A stretch of DNA of 64,000 nucleotides, taken from contig CP058708.1 of the NCBI GenBank assembly GCA_013414765.1, positions 4,942,748-5,006,747 on the forward strand, in the 5' to 3' direction. Under the pieces are notes generated by a model. It was not told where the DNA came from. It made no database searches and saw nothing but the letters and a program-made list of their open reading frames with translations. The position numbers and the translations under genes were made by a program. Below are positions 24,704-35,817 of the stretch, in pieces; position 1 is the stretch's first letter; each line of letters starts with the position of its first letter. The stretch is from Candidatus Accumulibacter cognatus. Lineage in GTDB: Bacteria > Pseudomonadota > Gammaproteobacteria > Burkholderiales > Rhodocyclaceae.

Positions 24704-25255
24704 TCACCCGACCACAACCGGCAGGGCTCCACTTATCAAAGCAGATTTTCTGTCCAAACAAACGGGGCCACCTCTCTCCACGTGCTTCTCGAGCGCCTTC
24801 TCCCGCAATGCATGGTCGATGTTGTCAAACAGGCCTTTGATATCAAACTCTAGAACCCAAGAATACTTCCAGCATCGTTCCCGCGTTACCCCCACGGCGT
24901 CCAGCGCCGATCTTCCGGGCCGGTAACCGTAGGAATCCGGTAGAAACTTTGCTTCGATCCCGGGCTCTATCACCCGCTTGACCACCGTCTGCGCCACACG
25001 ATCTGCCACCGTTGGAACCCCCAAGATGCGCTCCCCGCCATTCTTCTTGGGAATGGCAACCGCTTTGACCGGCGGCGGAAAGTAGCTTCCCGACGACATC
25101 CGGTTCCAGATCTTGTAGAGGTTCCCCTTCAGATCCTTCTCGAAGTCGCCGATCGATTCCTTATCCACCCCTGCCGATCCCGCATTGGCTTTGACCGCTT
25201 GATACGCTTCGTGCCCCCGCCATTTGTCAATGGCAAATGGTTTGGTTGCACTCGT
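24704..25255 (-). pseudogene. Group II intron reverse transcriptase/maturase, N-terminal remnant
   Basis: The frame reads TSATKPFAIDKWRGHEAYQA and continues with GSYFPPPVKAVAIPKKNGGE, RILGVPTVADRVAQTVVKR, SYGYRPGRSALDAV and VLEFDIKGLFDNIDHAL. These are RT blocks 0-4 of bacterial intron-encoded proteins. Similarity stops after LREKALEKHVERG (about 24765), so the catalytic YADD block, the maturase domain and any endonuclease are missing. No ATG is present at the expected start. GTG at 25168 is the only usable start, which would remove the first conserved block. Confidence 0.8.
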
Positions 25256-25813
25256 CCGTTCCCTCCTGTTGCCAGTTGAACGCTAAATGCAACCCCTTGA
25301 TCCGACCTCTTTGCTCCAGCCGCATTACCAGCCTTCATCGCTCGTACGGGTCGGTCCGTCCCAGTGCTCCGCATCGGTACTCTCGCCTCGTGGTTTCTGC
25401 CACTTGGGCTTCTCCCTTGACATCGGAACGACGGGTTCCCGCAGTTCCACACAGAAGCCTGGATCAGCTTCACGCCTCCTATACGCCGGCCGCCGCTTGC
25501 CCAGTCATCAGGTGCCCGGCAAGCTTTTCCCAGAAGATAGAAACGCCCCTGGTTTTGACGACAAGTCTCTGGATCACGACGCGTCAGCGAAGGTTCACTT
25601 TCGATCGTCTCTCTGATCCTTACCTGCTCGAGGTACGTCCTCGACGCTTTGACCCCAACGCTCACCACCACGGCTCTTGAGCGCAGCAGCTTGGGGTGGT
25701 TTGAGGCCCGCTCCTGAAAGCCGACCCCGAGGGACCTACCCTCATCTTCCGTGTAGCTTCTACACAGTTCGTCAGTCCATTACGAACCTCCTTTCTGTGT
25801 GCCTGCGGCACAC
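24755..25813 (-). mobile_element. Group II intron, 3'-truncated, inserted in an IS4-type transposase gene
   Basis: On the minus strand the intron appears to begin at 25813 with GTGTGCC, which fits the GUGYG 5' consensus. It lies directly after the RWAIE codons of the transposase. The 550 bp before the RT gene are non-coding and rich in the GA-tract and tetraloop segments typical of domain I-IV RNA (for example GGTGGTGAGCGTTGGGGTCA and GAGAGTACCGATGCGG by inspection). The RT gene breaks off near 24765 and domains V-VI and the 3' exon are not seen, so the intron cannot splice or move by itself. Confidence 0.6.
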
Positions 25814-26177
25814 TTTCGATTGCCCAGCGCGCACGATACCAGTCAATCAGTTCCGCGACCGCTTCGAGGTTGTCGGCCTCTCGACTGGTCAGCAAGCGCC
25901 ATTCAATGGGCTTGACATCTTTGGGTGCCCCAATCTCCTGGGCAATCACGCAGGTCACGCTAAACAGACTGCCCTGGCCATCGGGCAACTTGACGCGGCA
26001 GGCAAAGAGCTTCTGACGCACGAGACGAGCACCTTCTTTGCCACGCGCGTGCAAGAGGAATTCGATCTCGCCCAGCGCTTTTCCCGAGCGGACTTTCGCC
26101 CACAATTTGCCGCCCGCAGGCAGACAGCGATGGTGTTGCGAACGAAGCTGCCTAGATGGTCGCCCCGGTTGTGCCAA
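25814..26177 (-). pseudogene. IS4-family (Tn5-like) transposase remnant, exon upstream of the group II intron
   Basis: The frame contains GGKLWAKVRSGKALGEIEFL, ARLVRQKLFACRVKLPDG, then IEWRLLTSREADNLEAVAEL and IDWYRARWAIE. This is the C-terminal half of the catalytic core of IS4/Tn5-type transposases, up to the YREK-like catalytic Glu region. The N-terminus is frameshifted or missing beyond about 26177. The rest of the protein is cut off by the intron at 25813. The 250 bp from 26178 to 26426 contain only degraded sequence that I cannot assign. Confidence 0.65.
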
Positions 26178-26426
26178 GCCCTCAATCGATGACGATAAGA
26201 AAAGGTGGAGATTGCAGCCATAGATCCGGACTTCGATCGAGGCTACCGCCTCCTGTCCCTGATGGAATTCGCTGGTCGATGCCTCATCAGTCGGTCACGC
26301 TCGAAGCGCATGACTGCTATCAGGTTGAATCGACCACGGTCTGACCTGTCTCGCCATCACGTCATGATTGCCTGTGCAATCGGTGGTTCTCCTTGAAGGT
26401 TGCTGCCGTTGTGCTGCTCCACCGCA

Positions 26427-26495
26427 GGGTTTTCCACGGCGCCGGTCGCCGACGGTCCCTCTATCACCAGAGGCGGCCGGCGCCGTGGAAAACCC
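26427..26495 (-). ncRNA. Candidate bridge/seeker RNA hairpin of the IS110-family element
   Basis: Arms GGGTTTTCCACGGCGCCGG (26427-26445) and its exact complement at 26477-26495 form a perfect 19-bp stem. The 31-nt loop carries an inner CCTCT/AGAGG stem. It begins 4 bp after the transposase stop on the same strand. No run of T follows, so it is not a normal terminator. IS1111-group elements of the IS110 family encode their structured guide RNA in the non-coding end downstream of the recombinase. Location and structure fit; transcription and guide loops are not shown. Confidence 0.45.
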
Positions 26496-26499
26496 GTGT

Positions 26500-27531
26500 T
26501 CATGCCGCCGCCGATCCGTAATCGACCTGGTAGTCCCGGCCGTGTACCAGCAACGCCCAGACGATCCGGGCATTCTTGTTGGCGAGCGCCACCGCCGCTA
26601 CGTTCTTGTTGCGTCGCTCCATCACTCCCGCCAGCCAACTGCCCGCATGCGCGGCTTTGCGCTCGGCCACCCGGATCACCGCTCGTGCCCCGTGGATCAA
26701 GAGGGTCCGCAGATAGGTGTCGCCCCGTTTGCTGATGCCAAGCAGCGTCGGCTTGCCACCGCTGGAATTCCGTCGGGGCACCAGTCCCAGCCAGGCCGCC
26801 AGTTGCCGGCCATTCTCGAAGTTCTTGGCGTCCCCAATCGAGGCCACCAGGGCGCTCGCCGCGATCGGGCCAAGGCCGGGAATCTGAGCGAGTTTCTTGC
26901 TTGCGGCGTTCTCCCGGTGCCAAGTCTGGATCTGGACTTCCAACTCATTCACCTGTTTGTCGAGTTCCTTCAGATGGTTGCCAAGACGGTCAATCAATTG
27001 GCGAAACGTCCCTGGCAACCCGTTCTCGCCATCCTCCAGAATCTCGGGCAGGCGCTTGCCTATATGCACAATGCCTTGTGGGATGATGATGCCGTATTCG
27101 GCCAGAAGGCCCCGAATCTGGTTGGCCTGGACCGTCCTCGCCTTGACGAAACCCTGGCGGGCGCGGTGCAGGGCCAGGACCGCTTGCTGCCCGCCATTCT
27201 TGATCGGCACGAAGCACATGTTCGGCCGGCTCACCGCTTCGCAGATCACTTCGGCATCTGCGGCATCATTCTTGTTCGTCTTGACGTAAGGTTTCACGAA
27301 CTGCGGGGCCATCAGCTTCACGGTGTGCCCCAACTCCTGCAGCTTATTCGCCCAGAAATGGGCGCTGCCGTAGGCTTCCATGCCAATCCGACAGTGCGGC
27401 AGGTTGGCGAAGAACGGCATCATTTGATCCCGCTTGAGTTGCTTCTTCAACACCGTCTTGCCGTGTTCGTCCACGCCATGCACCTGGAACACGTTCTTTG
27501 CCAGATCGATACCAATTGTCGTAATCTTCAT
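26500..27531 (-). CDS. IS110-family transposase/recombinase (IS1111 group)
   Basis: A 343-residue DEDD recombinase of normal length without stops. The N-terminal RuvC-like domain shows IGIDLAKNVFQVHGVDEHG (Asp), CRIGMEAYGSAHFWA (Glu) and KTNKNDAADAEVICEAV (Asp pair). The central helix region contains VNELEVQIQTW. The C-terminal transposase_20 domain has AQIPGLGPIAASALVASIGD and the GISKRGDTYLRTLLIHGAR stretch with the serine nucleophile region. Such enzymes excise a circle and insert without target duplication, guided by an element-encoded RNA. Exact element ends were not resolved; upstream non-coding DNA is short. It lies just upstream of map. Confidence 0.93.
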   Translation of the reverse strand: MKITTIGIDLAKNVFQVHGVDEHGKTVLKKQLKRDQMMPFFANLPHCRIGMEAYGSAHFWANKLQELGHTVKLMAPQFVKPYVKTNKNDAADAEVICEAVSRPNMCFVPIKNGGQQAVLALHRARQGFVKARTVQANQIRGLLAEYGIIIPQGIVHIGKRLPEILEDGENGLPGTFRQLIDRLGNHLKELDKQVNELEVQIQTWHRENAASKKLAQIPGLGPIAASALVASIGDAKNFENGRQLAAWLGLVPRRNSSGGKPTLLGISKRGDTYLRTLLIHGARAVIRVAERKAAHAGSWLAGVMERRNKNVAAVALANKNARIVWALLVHGRDYQVDYGSAAA

Positions 27532-28008: not shown

Positions 28009-28809
28009 ATGAGCATTACTTGCAAGACTCCTCAAGAAATCGAAAAGATGCGCGTCGCCGGTCGCCTTACCGCCGAGGTGCTCGACTACATCGCGCCCTA
28101 TGTGAAGTCTGGAGTCACCACCGGCGAACTCGATCAACTTTGCCATGATTACATCGTGCAGGTTCAAGGCTGCATTCCGGCGCCACTCAACTATGCCCCA
28201 CCCGGCTACAAGCCTTATCCGAAGTCGATTTGCACTTCGATCAATCACCAGGTCTGTCACGGCGTTCCGGGTGACCGGCAATTAAGGAACGGCGACATCG
28301 TCAACCTCGACGTGACCGTGATCAGCAACGGCTACCATGGCGACAGCAGCCGCATGTTTCAGGTCGGTGAAACCTCTGTGCAGGCGCGGCGGCTATGCGA
28401 GGTCACCTACGATTGCCTCTGGCTGGGCATTGTGCAGGTCCGTGCTGGCGCACATCTCGGCGACATCGGTCACGCGATTCAGCAACATGCAGAGAAATCC
28501 GGCTATTCGGTGGTCCGTGAGTTCTGCGGCCACGGCATCGGCGCCAAGTTCCACGAAGAACCCCAGGTACTTCATTATGGGCGGCCGCATACCGGCATCG
28601 AGCTCAAAGCCGGCATGGTGTTTACCATCGAACCGATGATCAATGCCGGCAAGGCCGCGATTCGAACTATGGCCGATGGCTGGACGATCGTCACCAAGGA
28701 TCATAGCTTGTCCGCACAATGGGAGCATACCATCCTGGTGACCGACACGGGCTACGAAGTCCTCACCGTGTCGAAGGCGACTGCTTTGCGGCCAGACTGG
28801 ATCAGGTAG
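28009..28809 (+). CDS. map: Methionine aminopeptidase, type I
   Basis: A 266-residue type I MetAP that removes N-terminal Met from nascent proteins. Metal ligands are visible: [17 protein letters not shown] (two Asp), [16 protein letters not shown] (His), FTIEPMI (Glu) and [18 protein letters not shown] (Glu). The start chosen ([15 protein letters not shown]) matches the family; the frame is open for 21 codons upstream but those are unrelated. There is no strong ribosome site. glnD follows 5 bp later, a common betaproteobacterial order (rpsB is absent here because IS debris lies upstream). Confidence 0.95.
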
Positions 28810-28814
28810 CTGGC

Positions 28815-31397
28815 ATGAACAGTGAAGCCTTCGATCGTTCGGCGATCGTCGCCGGTTGCAGGTCACGCCTGCATGCTGGCCAAACGACGATCCGTGAGCG
28901 TTATCTCGGCGAAGGTGATGCGGCACGCCTGTTGCGCGAGCGTTGCCAACTGGTAGACGAAGTCCTCTGCGACCTGTGGCGAACACTGGCATTGCCGGCT
29001 TCACTGGCTTTGGTGGCGGTCGGTGGTTACGGACGCGGCGAACTCTATCCCGCCTCTGATGTTGACATCCTGTTGCTGTTGCCACAAGCGCCCGACGAAG
29101 TATTGACTGCTCAACTCGAGCGCGCGGTTGCGCTCTTCTACGACATCGCTCTCGATATCGCTCCTAGCGTGCGCACCGTCGAAGAGTGTTCGCACACCGC
29201 CGCCGCCGACCTGACGATTCAAACTGCATTGCTCGAAGCACGCCTGTTGGCAGGGAATCGCGAACTGTTCCAGGATGCCTGTAAAGAACTCAAGGGACAG
29301 ATTGATCCACAGGCCTTCTTCGAAGCGAAGCGGATGGAACAGGAACAGCGTCACCGCCGCTACCAAGATTCTCCCTACAGCCTGGAACCCAACTGCAAGG
29401 AAGCTCCGGGTGGGCTGCGGGATCTGCAAACAATCCTGTGGATCGCCCGTGCGGCTGGCTACGGTGACTCCTGGGAAGATCTCGCGCAGCATGGCTTCAT
29501 CACCCAGGAAGAACAACTGCAACTGAAGCGCTGTGTCGGTTTTCTGCAGCGTCTGCGCACGCACCTGCACCTGCACGTCGGCCGGCGCGAAGACCGTCTG
29601 CTGTTTGATTTCCAGACGGCACTCGCCGAACGGATGGGTTTCGTGCCCACCGATACCCGCAGGGCTAGTGAACGGCTGATGCAGGGTTACTACCGAACAG
29701 CCAAGGAAGTCACGCAGATCAACACGATCCTGCTGTTGAACATCGGCGCTGCAATATCACCACCGCCGGAGCAGTGGCCCCTGCCGATCAATGAACGCTT
29801 CCAGAACCGGCACGACCTGCTGGATGTGGTTAACGAAGACATCTTCGACAGGCATCCCGGGGCGATGCTCGAAGCTTTTCTGTTGATGCAGAAAAACTCC
29901 GATCTGCAGGGAATGACGGCGCGCACCTTGCGCGCCTTGTGGCATGCACGGACCCGGATTGACGCCGATTTCCGCCGTGACCCCGAGAATCGCGCCTGTT
30001 TTCTGGAAATCCTCAAACAGCCGCGCGGCGTTCTGCATGAGCTGCGTCGGATGAACCAGTTCGGAATTCTGGGTCGCTATCTGCCGAATTTCGGCAAGAT
30101 TGTCGGCCAGATGCAACACGATCTGTTTCACGTCTATACCGTCGATCAGCACAGCCTGCAGGTCCTGCGCAACCTGCGCCGTTTTCTCGCCGACGAATTC
30201 GCGCATGAGTATCCGCTGTGCAGCGAGTTGATCAGTGATTTCCCCCGTTGCTGGGTACTCTACGTGGCGGCACTGTTCCACGACATCGGCAAGGGACGCG
30301 GCGGTGACCACTCGGAACTCGGTGCCGTGGATGCTACCGAGTTTTGCGCCGAGCACGGCATCGCGGCCGAGGACAGTCAACTGATCGTCTGGCTGGTTCG
30401 CTGGCATCTACTGATGTCCAGCGTCGCCCAGAAACAGGACATTGCCGATCCGGACATCCTTGGTACCTTTGCCACGATGGTCAAGGACGAACGCCACCTA
30501 GTCGCCCTCTACCTGTTCACTGTCGCCGACATTCGTGGCACCAGTCCGAAAGTCTGGAATACCTGGAAAGGACAGCTCCTCGAACAGCTTTTCCGGAGTA
30601 CCTGCCGCACCCTGCTGGCGGGCGGTCAGGTACCGGTCAGGCAGGGCCTGATCGAGGAACGCCAGCAGGAAGCCCTGCGCCTGCTGCGCTACTTCGCGCT
30701 GCCCGACGCGGTGCACCAACGTCTGTGGAAGCAGCTCGACACGGTGTATTTCCTGCGCCATTCCGCTGAAGAAATCGCCTGGCACACGCGCGCCCTGCAC
30801 TATCGGACTCGCGTCGAGCAGCCGGTGGTCAAGGCACGGGTGAACCCACAGGGCGAAGGACTGGAGGTGTTGATCTATACGAAGGATCAGCGCGATCTGT
30901 TCGCGCGCCTGGTCGGCTTTTTCAGCCGTGCCGGCTACACTATCGTCGATGCCAAGATCCACACCACCCGTCACGGCTATGCACTGGACAGCTTCATGCT
31001 GCTCGATCTCAGCGATCGCGGCAGTGACCGTGCAATGATCAGCTATATCGAGCACGAGCTGAAAGCGCGGCTCAACCGCCAGAGTCCGCCCGAGGCACCC
31101 GGCAGCGGGCGCCTCTCGCGGCAGGTCAGGCACTTCCCGATTCAGCCGCTGGTCACCATCGAGCCGGACGAAAAAGGCTCGCACTATGTCCTGTCAATCG
31201 CTGCGGCCGATCGTCCGGGACTGCTGTACATGATCGCCATGACCCTGGCCGCGCATTGTGCTAGTCTCCACACGGCAAAAATTTCGACGCTCGGCGAGCG
31301 CGTTGAAGATACCTTCCTGATCAGCGGCGGAGGCCTCGGTGAAGCGGCCAACCGTGTCAGGCTGGAAACGGAATTGCTGGAGCGCCTGAAACTCTGA
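28815..31397 (+). CDS. glnD: [Protein-PII] uridylyltransferase / uridylyl-removing enzyme
   Basis: An 860-residue GlnD, the glutamine sensor that uridylylates PII under nitrogen limitation and de-uridylylates it when glutamine is high. The nucleotidyltransferase motif [15 protein letters not shown] (about 75-90) and the HD-domain motif [16 protein letters not shown] (about 490) supply the two opposing activities. Two C-terminal ACT domains ([20 protein letters not shown] at about 690 and [18 protein letters not shown] at about 800) bind glutamine. The start MNSEAFDRS is 5 bp after map. It probably forms an operon with map. Confidence 0.95.
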
Positions 31398-31466: not shown

Positions 31467-31498
31467 ACAGCAGATTCTGCAAGCTGTCGGTTTTTTTT
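31467..31498 (+). terminator. Weak candidate terminator after glnD
   Basis: ACAGC and GCTGT (with a nested GCAG-ATT-CTGC hairpin as an alternative fold) precede CGG and eight T residues. The stem is short and the T run is offset by three bases. Confidence 0.35.
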
Positions 31499-31587
31499 AC
31501 ACATCAAACTCTGACGAAGCTTGAGAGTTCTAGGCTACAAGGTACATCTCTATAATTTAAATCATGTTTTTCTAAAAATCTGAATAT

Positions 31588-31603
31588 TGGCACATAATTT
31601 GCT
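31588..31603 (+). promoter_or_regulatory. Sigma-54 (RpoN) promoter of the Tat-protein/HPr-rel-A cluster
   Basis: TGGCAC-ATAAT-TTGCT matches the -24/-12 consensus TGGCAC-N5-TTGCW at every defined position, with the correct spacing between GG and GC. Transcription would start near 31614, leaving a leader of about 147 nt before the ATG at 31761, which has AAGGAAAAC as ribosome site. No enhancer-binding protein gene is adjacent. The stretch 31398-31760 otherwise contains only the weak terminator and AT-rich DNA. Confidence 0.8.
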
Positions 31604-31760
31604 ATTGTCTCTAGCAAGGCGTGTTCGGCGACGAACGTTCAGTGGCGCGACAGCATGTATTCTGCTTCTATGGCACGTAACGTGATGCAGTCCGCAAACG
31701 TTCCGCGCAACGAAGGCTAGAGTATGTTGCTCAGGCAGAAATCGATCTCAAGGAAAACAC

Positions 31761-32135
31761 ATGTCAACGACTCCATCAGAACGAACCCAGCAGCGCCGCC
31801 GTCTGCTGAAGGCGGCCGCGTCGGCGCCGGCCATCTTTACGTTAAATGCCGGCGCTGCGCCTGTGCTTAATTCGCCTCCTGCGTTCAGCAGCACCCATTG
31901 CATTGCCAATAGTCAGACTCTGCCTAGCCCGCCCATGGAAACCGCCGGTCCGGACGGCTGGGTACGCACAAAGGTCACAACGGTAGACCCGGGTACTGGC
32001 CAGCCAGTGGTAACGTACCAGCTAGCCAATAATGGTCAAGGGCATGTGTATGGTGGAACGTGCTGGAATTCGTTCTATCAGATTACGCAGGGTACGCCGG
32101 GGTCGGCGGATGGCGACAATGTTCTGATTCCCTGA
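31761..32135 (+). CDS. Small Tat-signal exported protein of unknown function
   Basis: A 124-residue protein whose N-terminus carries a twin-arginine signal: QQRRRLLKAAASAPAIFTLN, ending in AGAA at about residue 38. The mature part of about 86 residues is rich in Pro, Thr, Gly and Asn, and has two Cys (THCIAN and GGTCWNS) that could form a disulphide or bind a ligand. No family is recognised. It is the first gene behind a sigma-54 promoter and immediately precedes the HPr-rel-A genes. It is therefore a plausible substrate or exported partner of that system, but this is only inferred from position. Confidence 0.75.
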   Translation: MSTTPSERTQQRRRLLKAAASAPAIFTLNAGAAPVLNSPPAFSSTHCIANSQTLPSPPMETAGPDGWVRTKVTTVDPGTGQPVVTYQLANNGQGHVYGGTCWNSFYQITQGTPGSADGDNVLIP

Positions 32136-32153
32136 GCTCCCTAGCCGTAACCT

Positions 32154-32432
32154 GTGCTGCACAAGGCGGGAGCAGCCTGCTTGGCCGAGATTTCGTACCG
32201 CAGACTGGGAGACGGTGGTGCCGTCTTTGATTCGGCGAGCTGGCAGACCCATATTCTGTCCCCTGCGGCAGCGATCATTTTTGAGGCCCTCGCTGAAATC
32301 AACGAGGGCAGGCCGGTACCCCAGGCTCAAGCCTTCGATTTTCTGCGCGATGAGCTGGATGTGGATATCGACACACCCGAAATGAAAGAAGTGTTGCGTT
32401 CTCTTGAGGAGATGGGCATCCTTGGCGGATGA
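32154..32432 (+). CDS. PqqD-like protein of the HPr-rel-A system
   Basis: A 92-residue PqqD-fold protein. It shows the FDSASWQTHILSPAAAIIFE segment and the C-terminal winged-helix-like part ending LRSLEEMGILGG. PqqD-fold proteins usually bind a precursor peptide (RRE role) for a modifying enzyme. The subfamily beside an HprK-related kinase is the one named PqqD-rel-X/HPr-rel-A in TIGRFAM usage (from memory). The start is GTG without a clear ribosome site. The stop overlaps the next ATG by 4 bp, so the two are translationally coupled. Confidence 0.72.
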   Translation: MLHKAGAACLAEISYRRLGDGGAVFDSASWQTHILSPAAAIIFEALAEINEGRPVPQAQAFDFLRDELDVDIDTPEMKEVLRSLEEMGILGG

Positions 32433-33376
32433 TTGCCGCCTGCCCGAGAATTCGAGACCTGCCGCCAAGCCTGCTGGCACAGCGTTTTTCAGAGGCATCG
32501 GTAACGCTCGATTATGGCGCTGCATTGGTCCGTGTCAGGACCGTCCTCCAGCCCTTCGTGCGAGATTTTCAGCGGGTCTACGGGGCATTTTCACTGGCTG
32601 AAGAAGCCAGTTTTGCGGATTTTCACACCGAAGTGTGTTCCGGAAAGGGCTTGCGGGCAATCTTTAGGCCGCAATCCCGTTTCCTGATCGACGGCATTCA
32701 GCCATTCGATCCCTTTCCCAGAGAGCAGGCGCTTCCCCACTTCGAATGGGGTGTCAACTGGTGTTTCGGAAAGCGCTTCAACCAATATGTCCTGTTGCAC
32801 TCCGGTGTCCTGGCTCTTGATGATCGCGGCGTGATCATGGCTGCACCGCCTGGCTCCGGCAAGAGCACGCTGACGGCGGCCATGATGCTGCGCGGGTTTC
32901 GGCTGTTGTCCGACGAGTTTGGCGTACTCTGCCCACACACCGGTCAGCTATGGCCAATGCTCAAGCCGGTGGCACTCAAGAATCGCTCGATCGACGTCAT
33001 CCGCGCCTACACCGACCAAGCGATCCTTGGCCCCGTCTACGGAGGAACCCGCAAGGGAGACGTGGTCCACCTGGCTCCCGATGAGGCCAGCGTTGATGCC
33101 AGGAGACTGCCTGCCCGCCCGCATCTGGTACTTTTTCCCCTTTTTCGGGAAGGCGCCGCACTGACGACCCGTCGGCTACCCAGAGAGGAAGCTTTTGCAC
33201 GCCTGGCTTTCAACAGCTTCAACTACGATCTGCTCGGGCGGATCTCCTTCAATGCCGTGGCCGATGTCATCGACGCTTGTCCGGCCTTCGAACTCGAATA
33301 CAGCCGGCTGGATGAGGCTATCGAATGCCTGCGTGCAATGCTTTTGGCATCGACCATAGCAGCGGCAGCGGCATGA
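32429..33376 (+). CDS. HprK-related kinase A (HPr-rel-A system)
   Basis: A 315-residue protein. A P-loop APPGSGKST lies at 139-147, preceded by LLHSGVLALDDRGVIMA and followed by LLSDEFGVL. This is the arrangement seen in the C-terminal kinase domain of HPr kinase/phosphorylase. The N-terminal HPrK domain is absent and replaced by an unrelated 115 residues. No HPr or PTS genes are nearby, so a PTS role is unlikely. Its substrate is unknown; the PqqD-like protein and the exported Tat protein are candidates. Both ends overlap the neighbours by 4 bp. Confidence 0.85.
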   Translation: MIAACPRIRDLPPSLLAQRFSEASVTLDYGAALVRVRTVLQPFVRDFQRVYGAFSLAEEASFADFHTEVCSGKGLRAIFRPQSRFLIDGIQPFDPFPREQALPHFEWGVNWCFGKRFNQYVLLHSGVLALDDRGVIMAAPPGSGKSTLTAAMMLRGFRLLSDEFGVLCPHTGQLWPMLKPVALKNRSIDVIRAYTDQAILGPVYGGTRKGDVVHLAPDEASVDARRLPARPHLVLFPLFREGAALTTRRLPREEAFARLAFNSFNYDLLGRISFNAVADVIDACPAFELEYSRLDEAIECLRAMLLASTIAAAAA

Positions 33377-34482
33377 GCAACCTGGGAGGGGTCGATCCCT
33401 GCATGCATGACATGTTGACCTTGCTGATTGACCCTAGGCAGGTGCGCAGTGTCAGTCTCGCCGATTGGGACAGGATCATTCGTCTCGCTCGGCAGTCCAG
33501 GCTGCTGGGAGTGCTCTCGCACCGAATTCAGTCGCATCCTGAACTATTGCCGCAGGTGCCGGGGTGCGTGCTGGGTCATCTGCGCTCGGCAGCAGCCTAT
33601 TCGGCACATCGCACCCAGGTGCTGCGCGTCGAGCTGGCGGCTCTGGCCCAAGCAATGCCGGCCGAGATCCCGGTGGTCGTACTCAAAGGCGCGGCCTACA
33701 TCTTGCAGGACCTTGAAAGCGCGCGCGGCCGCCTACCGGGTGATGTCGACCTGATGGTGGCCTACAACGATCTCAAGCGAGCCGAGGCCGCGCTGCTCGG
33801 TGCCGGTTGGGCAGCTGAAGAAATCAATGACTACGACCAGCGCTACTACCGCGAATGGAGCCATGAACTGCCCCCGATGCGCCGTCCTGGAAGTTCGGTG
33901 GAACTCGACCTGCACCACACGATCACGCCGGTGACGGCCCGTCTCAAGCCGGACACCGCCCTGCTGTTCACCGACCTGCAGGTGGTCGAGGGGAAACGAT
34001 TCCTGGTCCTGCATCCGCAGGATCAGATCCTGCACGCAGCAGTCCATCTTTTTCAGGACTCCGAACTGTTCGCCAATCTGCGCGATCTGGTCGATATCGA
34101 CAGCCTGATCCGCACCCACCTGCACTCGGAAAGCGACTGGCAGGCGCTCGCTGTGCGCGCTGCACGCCACAATCTTCAGCGACCCCTGTGGTATGCCCTA
34201 CGCTATTGCCAAGCGTGGCTCGCCACCGCGGTACCTGACGCTCTGCCATTGGCCGCTCCACCAGCAGCGGCCATCCGCTGGATGGACTGGGTCTTTCCCC
34301 GTTGCACGCTGCCAAGAATTCCGGACCGACCGCCACCCTTCTCGCGGCGGTTTGCCGCGCAACTTGGCTTGCTCCGCCACCAGTGGCTGCGCCTGCCGCC
34401 CAAGCTGCTGCTCCGCCATCTGGCCCATAAAGGCCTGCAGTCTCTGCGACCACGTCCGGCGGTGCCGCGCAAGGCCGAATAG
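33373..34482 (+). CDS. NTP_transf_5-type nucleotidyltransferase (HPr-rel-A system)
   Basis: A 369-residue protein. A minimal nucleotidyltransferase core is seen around residues 110-160: VVVLKGAAYILQDLE, then GRLPGDVDLMVAYNDL with the GDVD acidic pair, and a later VELDLHHTI. This fits the uncharacterised NTP_transf_5 family, which regularly accompanies HprK-related kinase and PqqD-like genes. The start MSNLGGVD overlaps the kinase stop (ATGA). A basic Leu/Arg-rich C-terminus ends 9 bp before the convergent rimO. Biochemical function is unknown. Confidence 0.8.
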   Translation: MSNLGGVDPCMHDMLTLLIDPRQVRSVSLADWDRIIRLARQSRLLGVLSHRIQSHPELLPQVPGCVLGHLRSAAAYSAHRTQVLRVELAALAQAMPAEIPVVVLKGAAYILQDLESARGRLPGDVDLMVAYNDLKRAEAALLGAGWAAEEINDYDQRYYREWSHELPPMRRPGSSVELDLHHTITPVTARLKPDTALLFTDLQVVEGKRFLVLHPQDQILHAAVHLFQDSELFANLRDLVDIDSLIRTHLHSESDWQALAVRAARHNLQRPLWYALRYCQAWLATAVPDALPLAAPPAAAIRWMDWVFPRCTLPRIPDRPPPFSRRFAAQLGLLRHQWLRLPPKLLLRHLAHKGLQSLRPRPAVPRKAE

Positions 34483-34491
34483 GCAGGCTGC

Positions 34492-35817
34492 TCAGGCAGG
34501 CTCGGCCACAAGTTCGGCATAGAGATCGTGCTCGTCGGCATCGACCACCCGCACCCGCAGAAAGTCACCCGGTTCGGCGTCGAAATGATCATTGACGAAC
34601 ACCAGGCCATCGATTTCCGGCGCATCGGCGGCCGAACGGGCGATCGTTCCCTCCTCGTCCACCTCGTCGACCAGGACGTCGATTTCACGCCCGATCTTCG
34701 CCGCCAGCAACTCTGCGGAAATATCTTCCTGCAACTCCATCAGACGACGCCGGCGTTCCTCGCGAAGCTCCTCTGGCAGCGCACCCGGCAAGGCATTGGC
34801 TGCCGCGCCGGCAACCGGCGAATAGGCGAAACAGCCGACGCGATCTAGGCGTGCCGCCGCGATGAAAGCCAGCAATTCTTCGAATTCCGCTTCACTCTCT
34901 CCTGGGAAGCCAGTGATGAAGGTGCTACGCACCGTGATCTCGGGGCAGACGGCCCGCCACGCCTGAATCCGTTCGAGATTGTTCTCGGCACTCGCCGGAC
35001 GCTTCATGGCCTTCAAAATGCGCGGGCTGGCGTGCTGGAAAGGCACATCGAGGTACGGCAGCAGCTTGCCCTCGGCCATCAGCGGCAACAGCGCGTCGAC
35101 GCTCGGATACGGATAGACGTAGTGCAGGCGCACCCAGATGCCCAGCTCCGCCAGCGCTTCGCAGAGTTCCTGCAGCCGGGTCCGCAACGGACGACCACCG
35201 ACAAAGCCGGTTCGGTACTTCACATCGACACCGTAGGCGCTGGTGTCCTGCGAAATGATGAGCAGTTCGCGCACGCCGGCGTCGGCCAGCGTTCTGGCTT
35301 CCTGCAGCACCTCACCGATCGGTCTGCTGACCAGAGGTCCGCGCATCGAGGGGATGATACAGAAAGTGCAACTGTGATTGCAGCCCTCGGAAATCTTCAG
35401 GTAGGCAAAATGCTGCGGCGTCAGCTTGATGCCCTGCGGCGGGACCAGGCTGGAGAACGGGTCGTGCGGCTGCGGCAAATGCGCATGCACTTGCTGCAGC
35501 ACTTCGTTGGCGGCATGCGGGCCGGTCACCGCCAGTACCTGCGGGTGCGCCTGGCGGATCACTTCTTCCCTGGCACCCAGGCAACCGGTGACGATCACCT
35601 TGCCGTTCGCGGTCAGAGCCTCGCCGATGGCGTCGAGCGACTCCTCTACCGCGGCATCGATGAAACCGCAGGTGTTGACGACGACCAGATCAGCGCCTTC
35701 GTAGGAAGGCGAAATCAGATAGCCCTCGGCGCGCAACCGGGTGAGAATCTGTTCCGAGTCGACGAGCGCCTTTGGGCACCCAAGGGAAACCACACCTATG
35801 CTTTTCGGTCTGGACAT
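34492..35817 (-). CDS. rimO: Ribosomal protein uS12 methylthiotransferase RimO
   Basis: A 441-residue radical-SAM methylthiotransferase that modifies Asp88 of ribosomal protein S12. The N-terminal UPF0004 domain has three Cys ([23 protein letters not shown]) for the auxiliary cluster. The radical-SAM motif is [11 protein letters not shown] at about 148. The C-terminal TRAM domain ends the protein ([40 protein letters not shown]). The SLGCPK lead distinguishes RimO from MiaB. It converges on the HPr-rel-A cluster. Confidence 0.96.

Follow-up and report, generated by a model that had tools for sequence, protein, structure and literature searches.

Which molecule do the enzymes of the HPr-rel-A gene set serve? 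The question is raised by a locus in the genome of Candidatus Accumulibacter cognatus, a single contig of 5.17 Mb (CP058708.1, assembly GCA_013414765.1), of which the 64,000 nucleotides from position 4,942,748 to 5,006,747 of the forward strand were analysed; this whole stretch is called the window. Between glnD and rimO it contains a small gene for a protein with a signal of the twin-arginine translocation (Tat) type, followed by genes for a PqqD-like protein, an HprK-related kinase and a nucleotidyltransferase. The computations described here indicate that the four genes probably form a cassette resembling those for ribosomally synthesised and post-translationally modified peptides (RiPPs), dedicated to the maturation and export of the Tat precursor. 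The precursor gene is the unnamed constant companion of three catalogued, unexplained enzyme genes, and in Accumulibacter it is exchanged together with them.

The four-gene cassette

The genes follow each other on the forward strand:

31761–32135, + strand: Tat-signal precursor (open reading frame (ORF) translation) of 124 amino acids, with the arginine pair at residues 12–13 and cysteines at 47 and 101
32154–32432, + strand: PqqD-like protein with a GTG start, NCBIfam PqqD_rel_X (TIGR04353), with a predicted RiPP-recognition-element fold
32429–33376, + strand: HprK-related kinase A, NCBIfam HprK_rel_A (TIGR04352)
33373–34482, + strand: NTP_transf_5 nucleotidyltransferase, Pfam PF14907, with its ATG at 33373 (the ORF list gives a longer frame, from 33325)

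The twin-arginine protein of 124 residues with two cysteines is as the preliminary description of this DNA had it. The overlaps of 4 bp reported there are present between the PqqD-like and kinase genes and between the kinase and nucleotidyltransferase genes, both as ATGA; these are the only two, the end of the Tat gene being separated from the PqqD-like start by an 18-bp gap. As for the enzyme trio, the kinase scores 361.4 bits against HprK_rel_A (cut-off 200) and the nucleotidyltransferase 188.4 bits against NTP_transf_5 (cut-off 31.2), while the PqqD-like protein, at 34.7 bits, is marginally below the PqqD_rel_X cut-off of 35. With that reservation, the three enzyme genes are those of the HPr-rel-A set catalogued in NCBIfam (TIGR04352, TIGR04353), of which we take NTP_transf_5 to be a part. 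The cassette is a member of this set, extended by a fourth component, the Tat precursor, and by a regulator acting on a PrsR-type promoter, neither of which is named in the set as consulted.

Conservation of the precursor gene

For comparison, 139 HprK_rel_A loci were assembled: 30 from relatives, 29 more from the class and 80 named loci, the latter being the best 80 of 194 relatives. Leaving out L131, L158 and L163 (second copies of L019, L022 and L024) and L042, which is from a different genome and has a kinase stretch identical to that of L041, reduced these to 135. A hidden Markov model (HMM) grown from the Tat protein of the window matches upstream of the kinase in 130 of the 135 loci, and two of the five missed loci are contig edges. 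On the 14,560 six-frame ORFs of the loci, the same model gives only eight further matches, four in the duplicates that had been set aside and four as relocated copies in L151, L153 and L200, which are three of the five missed loci. Companion models find the PqqD-like protein in 133 of 135 loci (seeded by the window protein) and the nucleotidyltransferase in 125 of 130 eligible loci. The suspicion voiced earlier that the Tat protein is a new component, conserved beside other HprK_rel_A genes, is supported, and the catalogued set gains a fourth member. In L200 (5667–7107), a tandem pair of precursor genes is located downstream, not upstream, of the kinase.

The same association is observed in whole genomes. 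A model of the signal region, A3, was built from every second of 126 signal regions (63 sequences, 58 of which aligned with the window row, giving 59 rows). Three mis-started ORFs (L124, L125 and L170) and L128 were excluded from its candidates, and the same three ORFs from the precursor-motif counts (n = 127) and the promoter tests below. In 61 genomes A3 gives 35 strong matches, one per genome (E ≤ 2.1e-7, the next being 1.5e-4), and these 35 genomes are exactly the 35 with HprK_rel_A above cut-off, with none among the other 26. Judged by handle, 14 of the 35 genomes contributed a row to A3 and 21 did not. In G041 the precursor is downstream of the kinase. A simpler count scored an upstream ORF at 116 of 136 loci, where controls on the opposite strand and at +4 kb gave 22 of 136 and 5 of 67, respectively (only L042 and L158 dropped, L176 too short). 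It contained false matches and misses, and was replaced by the HMM test.

Structure of the precursor

The window precursor has no Pfam match at E ≤ 1 and two NCBIfam matches below cut-off (17.9 against 36 bits and 15.6 against 540 bits). Family scans covered this protein and some of its relatives: ten gave no NCBIfam match at E ≤ 0.01 and ten, partly the same, gave in Pfam at E ≤ 0.5 only a weak TAT_signal match, in L195. What the precursors have in common is the signal region, with the consensus RRxLxKxGxxAPVILTLxSRPxxA as read from alignments. The arginine pair is invariant in 59 aligned rows, which had been selected with [RK]R, and 96 of the 127 precursors have a basic residue in the c-region, as fits a Sec-avoidance signal.

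The mature part is of at least three types. Type 1, to which the window protein belongs, is short and ends near SCWxS, another type ends near VAILSS, and a long type carries CxxSGxxSGNxS and SPGYWK. Typing of 130 precursors by regular expression yields 80 of type 3, 26 of type 1, 13 of type 2 and 11 unassigned; this sorting is rough, L022 being placed in type 3 with a type-2 tail and L136 resembling type 1. In 27 type-1-like sequences R12, R13, P23 and C47 are invariant, with S43, C101 and S104 reaching 90%. Over 55 pairs of Accumulibacter type-1 precursors, residues 1–36 are 69% identical and the remainder 35%, and the protein therefore consists of a constant leader and a variable core.

The first cysteine past the signal is at RR+24 to RR+35 in 122 of 127 precursors. 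A serine is found near it (−6 to +4) in 124 of 126, compared with 1500 of 2657 11-mers from mature parts; at single offsets the serine frequency is up to 0.36 against 0.078, mainly from type 3. An acceptor serine fixed across the three types was looked for and not found. The precursors were also considered as lipoproteins, and this was set aside since no conserved lipobox was noticed on reading them, a dedicated lipobox test not being part of the analysis. The smallest precursor (L120, 787–1011) has 74 amino acids, with about 12–15 residues past the signal (cleavage placed by eye), two cysteines and a CxxS-like end, and is possibly a natural minimal substrate; the nucleotidyltransferase HMM finds no adjacent gene at that locus.

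Exchange of the cassette in Accumulibacter

The cassette is flanked by two genes:

28719–31397, + strand: glnD, on the left, a constant neighbour with cassettes exchanged behind it
34492–35817, − strand: rimO, right flank, convergent

HprK_rel_A is above cut-off in 26 other Accumulibacter genomes, of which 20 were compared with their flanks, assigning type labels by hand and taking identities from tblastn (E ≤ 1e-3). In all 20 the cassette is behind glnD, as it is in L163, from a 21st genome. The median identity of glnD to the window is 78% both in the nine type-1 and in the ten type-2 genomes. For the kinase it is 76% in type 1 and 39% in type 2, and for the nucleotidyltransferase 68% and 38%; the PqqD-like protein and the Tat protein, at 64% and 37% in type 1, are undetected in type 2. 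A type-3 precursor occupies the same place behind glnD in G004. On the other side, rimO falls inside the compared stretch in four of nine type-1 and seven of ten type-2 genomes, with about 90% identity. The cassette is thus exchanged as a unit behind glnD. That the flanks stay constant while the block between them is replaced speaks for a mutual dependence of precursor and enzymes.

Only one member of the genus, G022, does not have HprK_rel_A above cut-off. Behind its glnD (L247) there is no match to the precursor, the PqqD-like protein or the kinase, and only an NTP_transf_5 fragment (66 amino acids, 39%) persists, so this genome seems to have lost the rest of the cassette. Next to its second glnD-like gene, no cassette is present within the adjoining 1.5 kb. 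The next large ORF in L247 resembles a dnaE2-type ORF beside another cassette (named by eye).

The promoter and the PrsR regulon

Two elements are found upstream of the precursor gene:

31485–31501, + strand: PrsR-type upstream motif (Haft motif 1), TGTCGGTTTTTTTTACA, a pattern match
31588–31603, + strand: sigma-54 −24/−12 element, TGGCACATAATTTGCT, 86 nt after motif 1 and 157 nt before the Tat ATG

The perfect −24/−12 promoter noted previously is indeed there, TGGCACATAATTTGCT being the sole perfect match to TGGCACN5TTGCW in the 64 kb, with three further sites at one mismatch. Taken alone the site is weak, because 2.6 sites are expected in the window at up to one mismatch; it becomes strong because it is paired with GTCGGTTTTTTTTACA at 31486–31501, the one window match to GTCGN5TTTTACA, for which 0.01 are expected.

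For 99 of 167 PEP-CTERM genes from proteobacteria, the upstream region has been described as holding a 17-nt motif that ends in TTTACA and is followed 32–92 nt later by a sigma-54 site, with PrsK and PrsR proposed as regulators from a phylogenetic profile (Haft 2006, PMC1569441), and a PEP-CTERM gene of Aquincola with a −24/−12 site depends on RpoN1 (PMC9850573). The cassette has the same arrangement: its spacer of 86 nt lies within the published range (32–92, mean 62.8), and its 157 nt to the start codon compare with a mean of 71 and a maximum of 221 (PMC1569441). It differs in the gene that is driven, a Tat-signal precursor with modifying enzymes and not a PEP-CTERM protein; the Tat gene was considered as a PEP-CTERM gene and rejected, as no sorting domain is found (Pfam at E ≤ 1; PEP-CTERM genome scan at E ≤ 0.1).

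Genome-wide, GTCGN5TTTTACA occurs at 19 sites, against 2 for the reversed pattern. Thirteen of them are upstream of a same-strand PEP-CTERM match, twelve within 1.2 kb and one at 3.4 kb, and that of the cassette is one of the six others. The remaining five motifs not followed by a PEP-CTERM match at E ≤ 0.1 (L082, L086, L090, L093 and L095) mark candidate regulon members. PrsR itself is encoded in the genome (733.5 bits, cut-off 502.6).

Promoter tests excluded loci with less than 250 nt upstream (L025 within the genus). In the 23 testable of 25 Accumulibacter loci, motif 1 is present in 21, the sigma-54 site in 22 and the pair, spaced by 82–86 nt, in 20, while the reversed controls give 0, 2 and 0. 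Outside the genus (n = 101), motif 1 is found in 50 loci (control 0) and the strict sigma-54 site in 17 (control 2). In those 50 motif-1 loci, TGG-N9-YGC follows at 40–115 nt in 34, compared with 2 in the upstream and 1 in the reversed stretch, and a second loose pattern in 41, compared with 7 and 1; here 75 nt upstream of the motif were required.

Of 369 genomes from the class, 41 have HprK_rel_A above cut-off and 106 have PrsR. PrsR is present in 40 of the 41 and in 66 of the 328 others (Fisher 1.3e-23, uncorrected for kinship), the sole HprK_rel_A genome without it being 75% complete. The RpoN activator postulated earlier can be named as PrsR, with PrsK. The ORF families that recur around the 80 named loci include those with PrsT (14 loci), PrsR (9) and an XrtA exopolysaccharide export protein (9) as representatives; one representative of each family was identified, that of PrsT reaching 287 bits for a cut-off of 312. 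Near the cassette of L201 (13961–14848) there is a fragment resembling an XrtA/PEP-CTERM amidotransferase, which also has a lasso cyclase match below cut-off, and its ORF family recurs in L156, L169 and L186.

The putative modifying enzymes

The model of the PqqD-like protein (predicted local distance difference test score, pLDDT, 82.8) has three strands and three helices. Its first ten matches in the PDB are all recognition-element proteins (TbiB1, lasso B1, CteB, SuiB), with TbiB1 bound to a leader peptide at the top; the matches are modest, with E values from 4e-3 to 0.3 and none at or below 0.001. The protein is accordingly modelled as a RiPP recognition element by its predicted fold. In 22 kinase sequences a histidine, the P-loop, SDE and LK are invariant, and over the P-loop region a PDB search with the kinase profile finds HPr kinase (E 8e-4). 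On the HPr kinase/phosphorylase model TIGR00679, the window kinase reaches 15.6 bits, the cut-off being 240, and a role in regulation through HPr and the phosphotransferase system was discarded on that ground. In the nucleotidyltransferase, R-DxD and D-x-H are present in 129 of 129 aligned sequences.

Two genomes of the same genus, G025 and G009, also encode a PqqD–HprK fusion followed by NTP_transf_5, and the three activities therefore belong together. These paralogous fusion systems are:

L245, 3844–6124, − strand: paralogous fusion system
L246, 4155–6522, + strand: paralogous fusion system

By Pfam, PqqD and NTP_transf_5 are above cut-off in both and Hpr_kinase_C in one. In a single pairwise hhalign comparison, the window PqqD-like family aligns with the PqqD domain of one fusion at E 4.6e-6 and probability 86.5. 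An RTX-like ORF, judged by eye, is near the system in L245.

Comparison with known systems

The closest precedents, by analogy, are the LPP peptides and pseudomycoidin. In the LPP peptides of Bacillota, first encountered in clusters that sit inside loci for capsular polysaccharide, the HprK-like LppK phosphorylates Ser3 of the LppA core and belongs to a set with a RiPP recognition element and an NTP transferase (PMC13381572). The cassette has the same three discrete proteins, its recognition element being a predicted model, and likewise a precursor with a constant N-terminus and a variable C-terminus. LPP clusters encode a leader peptidase resembling SipW and an exporter resembling MsbA, and their leaders carry the motif YxxPxVLxHQ (PMC13381572), while the cassette has a Tat-type signal as putative leader, precursors that are often longer, and hosts that are mostly Pseudomonadota (among the best 80 of 194 named loci). 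Between glnD and rimO the coding strand has no room for an SpI-like peptidase or an MsbA-like exporter (the antisense strand and the rest of the genome were not searched), and the leader motif YxxPxVLxHQxIxFETxxS was not found when the window precursor was read. The cassette would work in the manner of an LPP-type RiPP pathway, but since it has none of the three (leader peptidase, exporter, leader motif) it is not classed with LPP.

In pseudomycoidin, PsmK phosphorylates a serine of the precursor, and the nucleotidyltransferase homologue PsmN is needed for the hexose on the phosphoserine (PMC9266682); the lasso-tailoring kinases of the PadeK and PsmK group have been called HPr kinases (PMC7533575). 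Kinase, nucleotidyltransferase and B1 recognition element of paeninodin and pseudomycoidin tailoring (PadeK, PsmK, PsmN; PMC9266682) have their likenesses here. The cassette product would differ in not being a lasso peptide, and the four genes of the cassette include neither a macrolactam cyclase nor a B2 peptidase. No description of the cassette was recognised in the open-licence literature, although it may have been mentioned elsewhere before. The main text of a study of an Accumulibacter-enrichment secretome mentions PEP-CTERM proteins and does not contain the words Tat or twin-arginine (PMC12019908).

Proposed pathway and alternatives

On the LPP and pseudomycoidin precedents, a sequence of recognition, serine phosphorylation, capping and Tat export is proposed. 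PrsR and sigma-54 would switch the operon on alongside the PEP-CTERM genes. The gene at 31761 would encode a precursor of which the N-terminal Tat signal doubles as leader, to be bound by the PqqD-like recognition element. The kinase would then transfer phosphate to a serine while the precursor is bound; in the window protein this could be Ser104 of the TCWNS motif, or Ser43 or Ser44 near the mature N-terminus. By analogy with the proposal for PsmN, the NTP_transf_5 enzyme may add a nucleotidyl or sugar group as a cap. Once finished and folded, the protein would leave through Tat and lose its leader to signal peptidase; Tat exports folded proteins, and is therefore a fitting route. From the co-switching with PEP-CTERM genes, the product would most likely be a component of the surface or of the exopolysaccharide matrix. 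That the Tat protein is the substrate of the enzymes, as first suggested from this locus, is favoured by gene linkage, predicted fold, conserved active sites, cassette exchange and the published precedents.

A number of results weigh against this pathway. The cassette genes include no leader peptidase or dedicated exporter, the PqqD-like protein just misses its family threshold, and five of the 130 eligible loci have no adjacent nucleotidyltransferase gene. Precursors of up to 288 amino acids are far above the usual RiPP length, there is no obvious acceptor site common to the three core types (Ser104 is conserved in type 1 only), and the structure model of the Tat protein, with a pLDDT of 54, is unusable. 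Pfam TAT_signal does not list the window protein in a search of its own genome at E ≤ 0.5, and the label Tat therefore rests on the arginine pair, the hydrophobic run and the c-region charge; the proline of the signal is not general, a P-h-h motif being found in 78 of 127 precursors. Finally, the expectation that relatives share the −24/−12 element holds within Accumulibacter, with the motif pair in 20 of 23 loci, and beyond it only in part: outside the genus motif 1 is missing from 51 of the 101 loci, the strict pair is present in only 6 (control 0), and a stricter sigma-54 pattern follows motif 1 in only 13 of the 50 loci that have it, compared with 4 and 0.

It is unlikely that the enzymes act on another target, such as an exopolysaccharide precursor, a lipid carrier or a regulator, with the Tat protein merely a co-regulated secreted partner. 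The PEP-CTERM regulon signature of the operon, the exopolysaccharide genes near it in some other species and the missing common acceptor motif in the mature proteins would suit such a target, but a protein of the recognition-element kind points to a peptide as ligand, kinases related to this one act on precursor peptides, and the Tat gene occurs with roughly the same regularity as those of the enzymes and is swapped along with them. More doubtful still is a chief role of the PqqD-like protein in Tat proofreading, as a chaperone holding the signal until folding or disulfide bonding is complete, with kinase and transferase regulating release; the signal itself is the region common to the precursors in the A3 model, and Pro23 is invariant among type-1 sequences, but the active-site residues of both enzymes are conserved as for catalysis and the closest characterised sets modify their precursor covalently. 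That the −24/−12 element is a chance match and the cluster lies outside any sigma-54 regulon is highly improbable and was dismissed on the paired motif, its spacing of 82–86 nt in Accumulibacter, the reversed controls and the looser pattern outside the genus, despite the number of one-mismatch sites expected per window and the scarcity of strict pairs in other genera.

Dedicated maturation and export of the Tat precursor by the cassette remains, then, the reading we hold probable. A wider proposition is offered tentatively: the cassettes may represent a new RiPP-like class in which the recognition element reads the Tat signal itself as the leader. Precursors of protein size would then receive their phosphate and their nucleotidyl or sugar cap while still in the cytoplasm and leave it folded, to become parts of the exosortase/exopolysaccharide surface that are specific to the strain and can be interchanged, with whole cassettes of precursor and enzymes swapped at one chromosomal slot.

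Significance

The link to the PEP-CTERM/XrtA system and the RiPP precedents go beyond the preliminary description. For three orphan enzyme families there is now a likely substrate, together with a regulator and a chemistry that can be tested. Among the best 80 of 194 named loci, the hosts are many environmental Pseudomonadota, including sulfur, methane and sludge bacteria. If the proposal is right, RiPP-type modification, Tat export and the PEP-CTERM/exopolysaccharide system become linked, the last of which takes part in the floc formation used in activated-sludge treatment; it would be a new design for one signal peptide to direct export and also act as the leader by which the enzymes recognise their substrate.

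Other features of the window

Upstream of glnD, at 24704–27531 on the − strand, a fragment resembling a group II intron reverse transcriptase and an IS110-like transposase are located, both named by eye from their translations.

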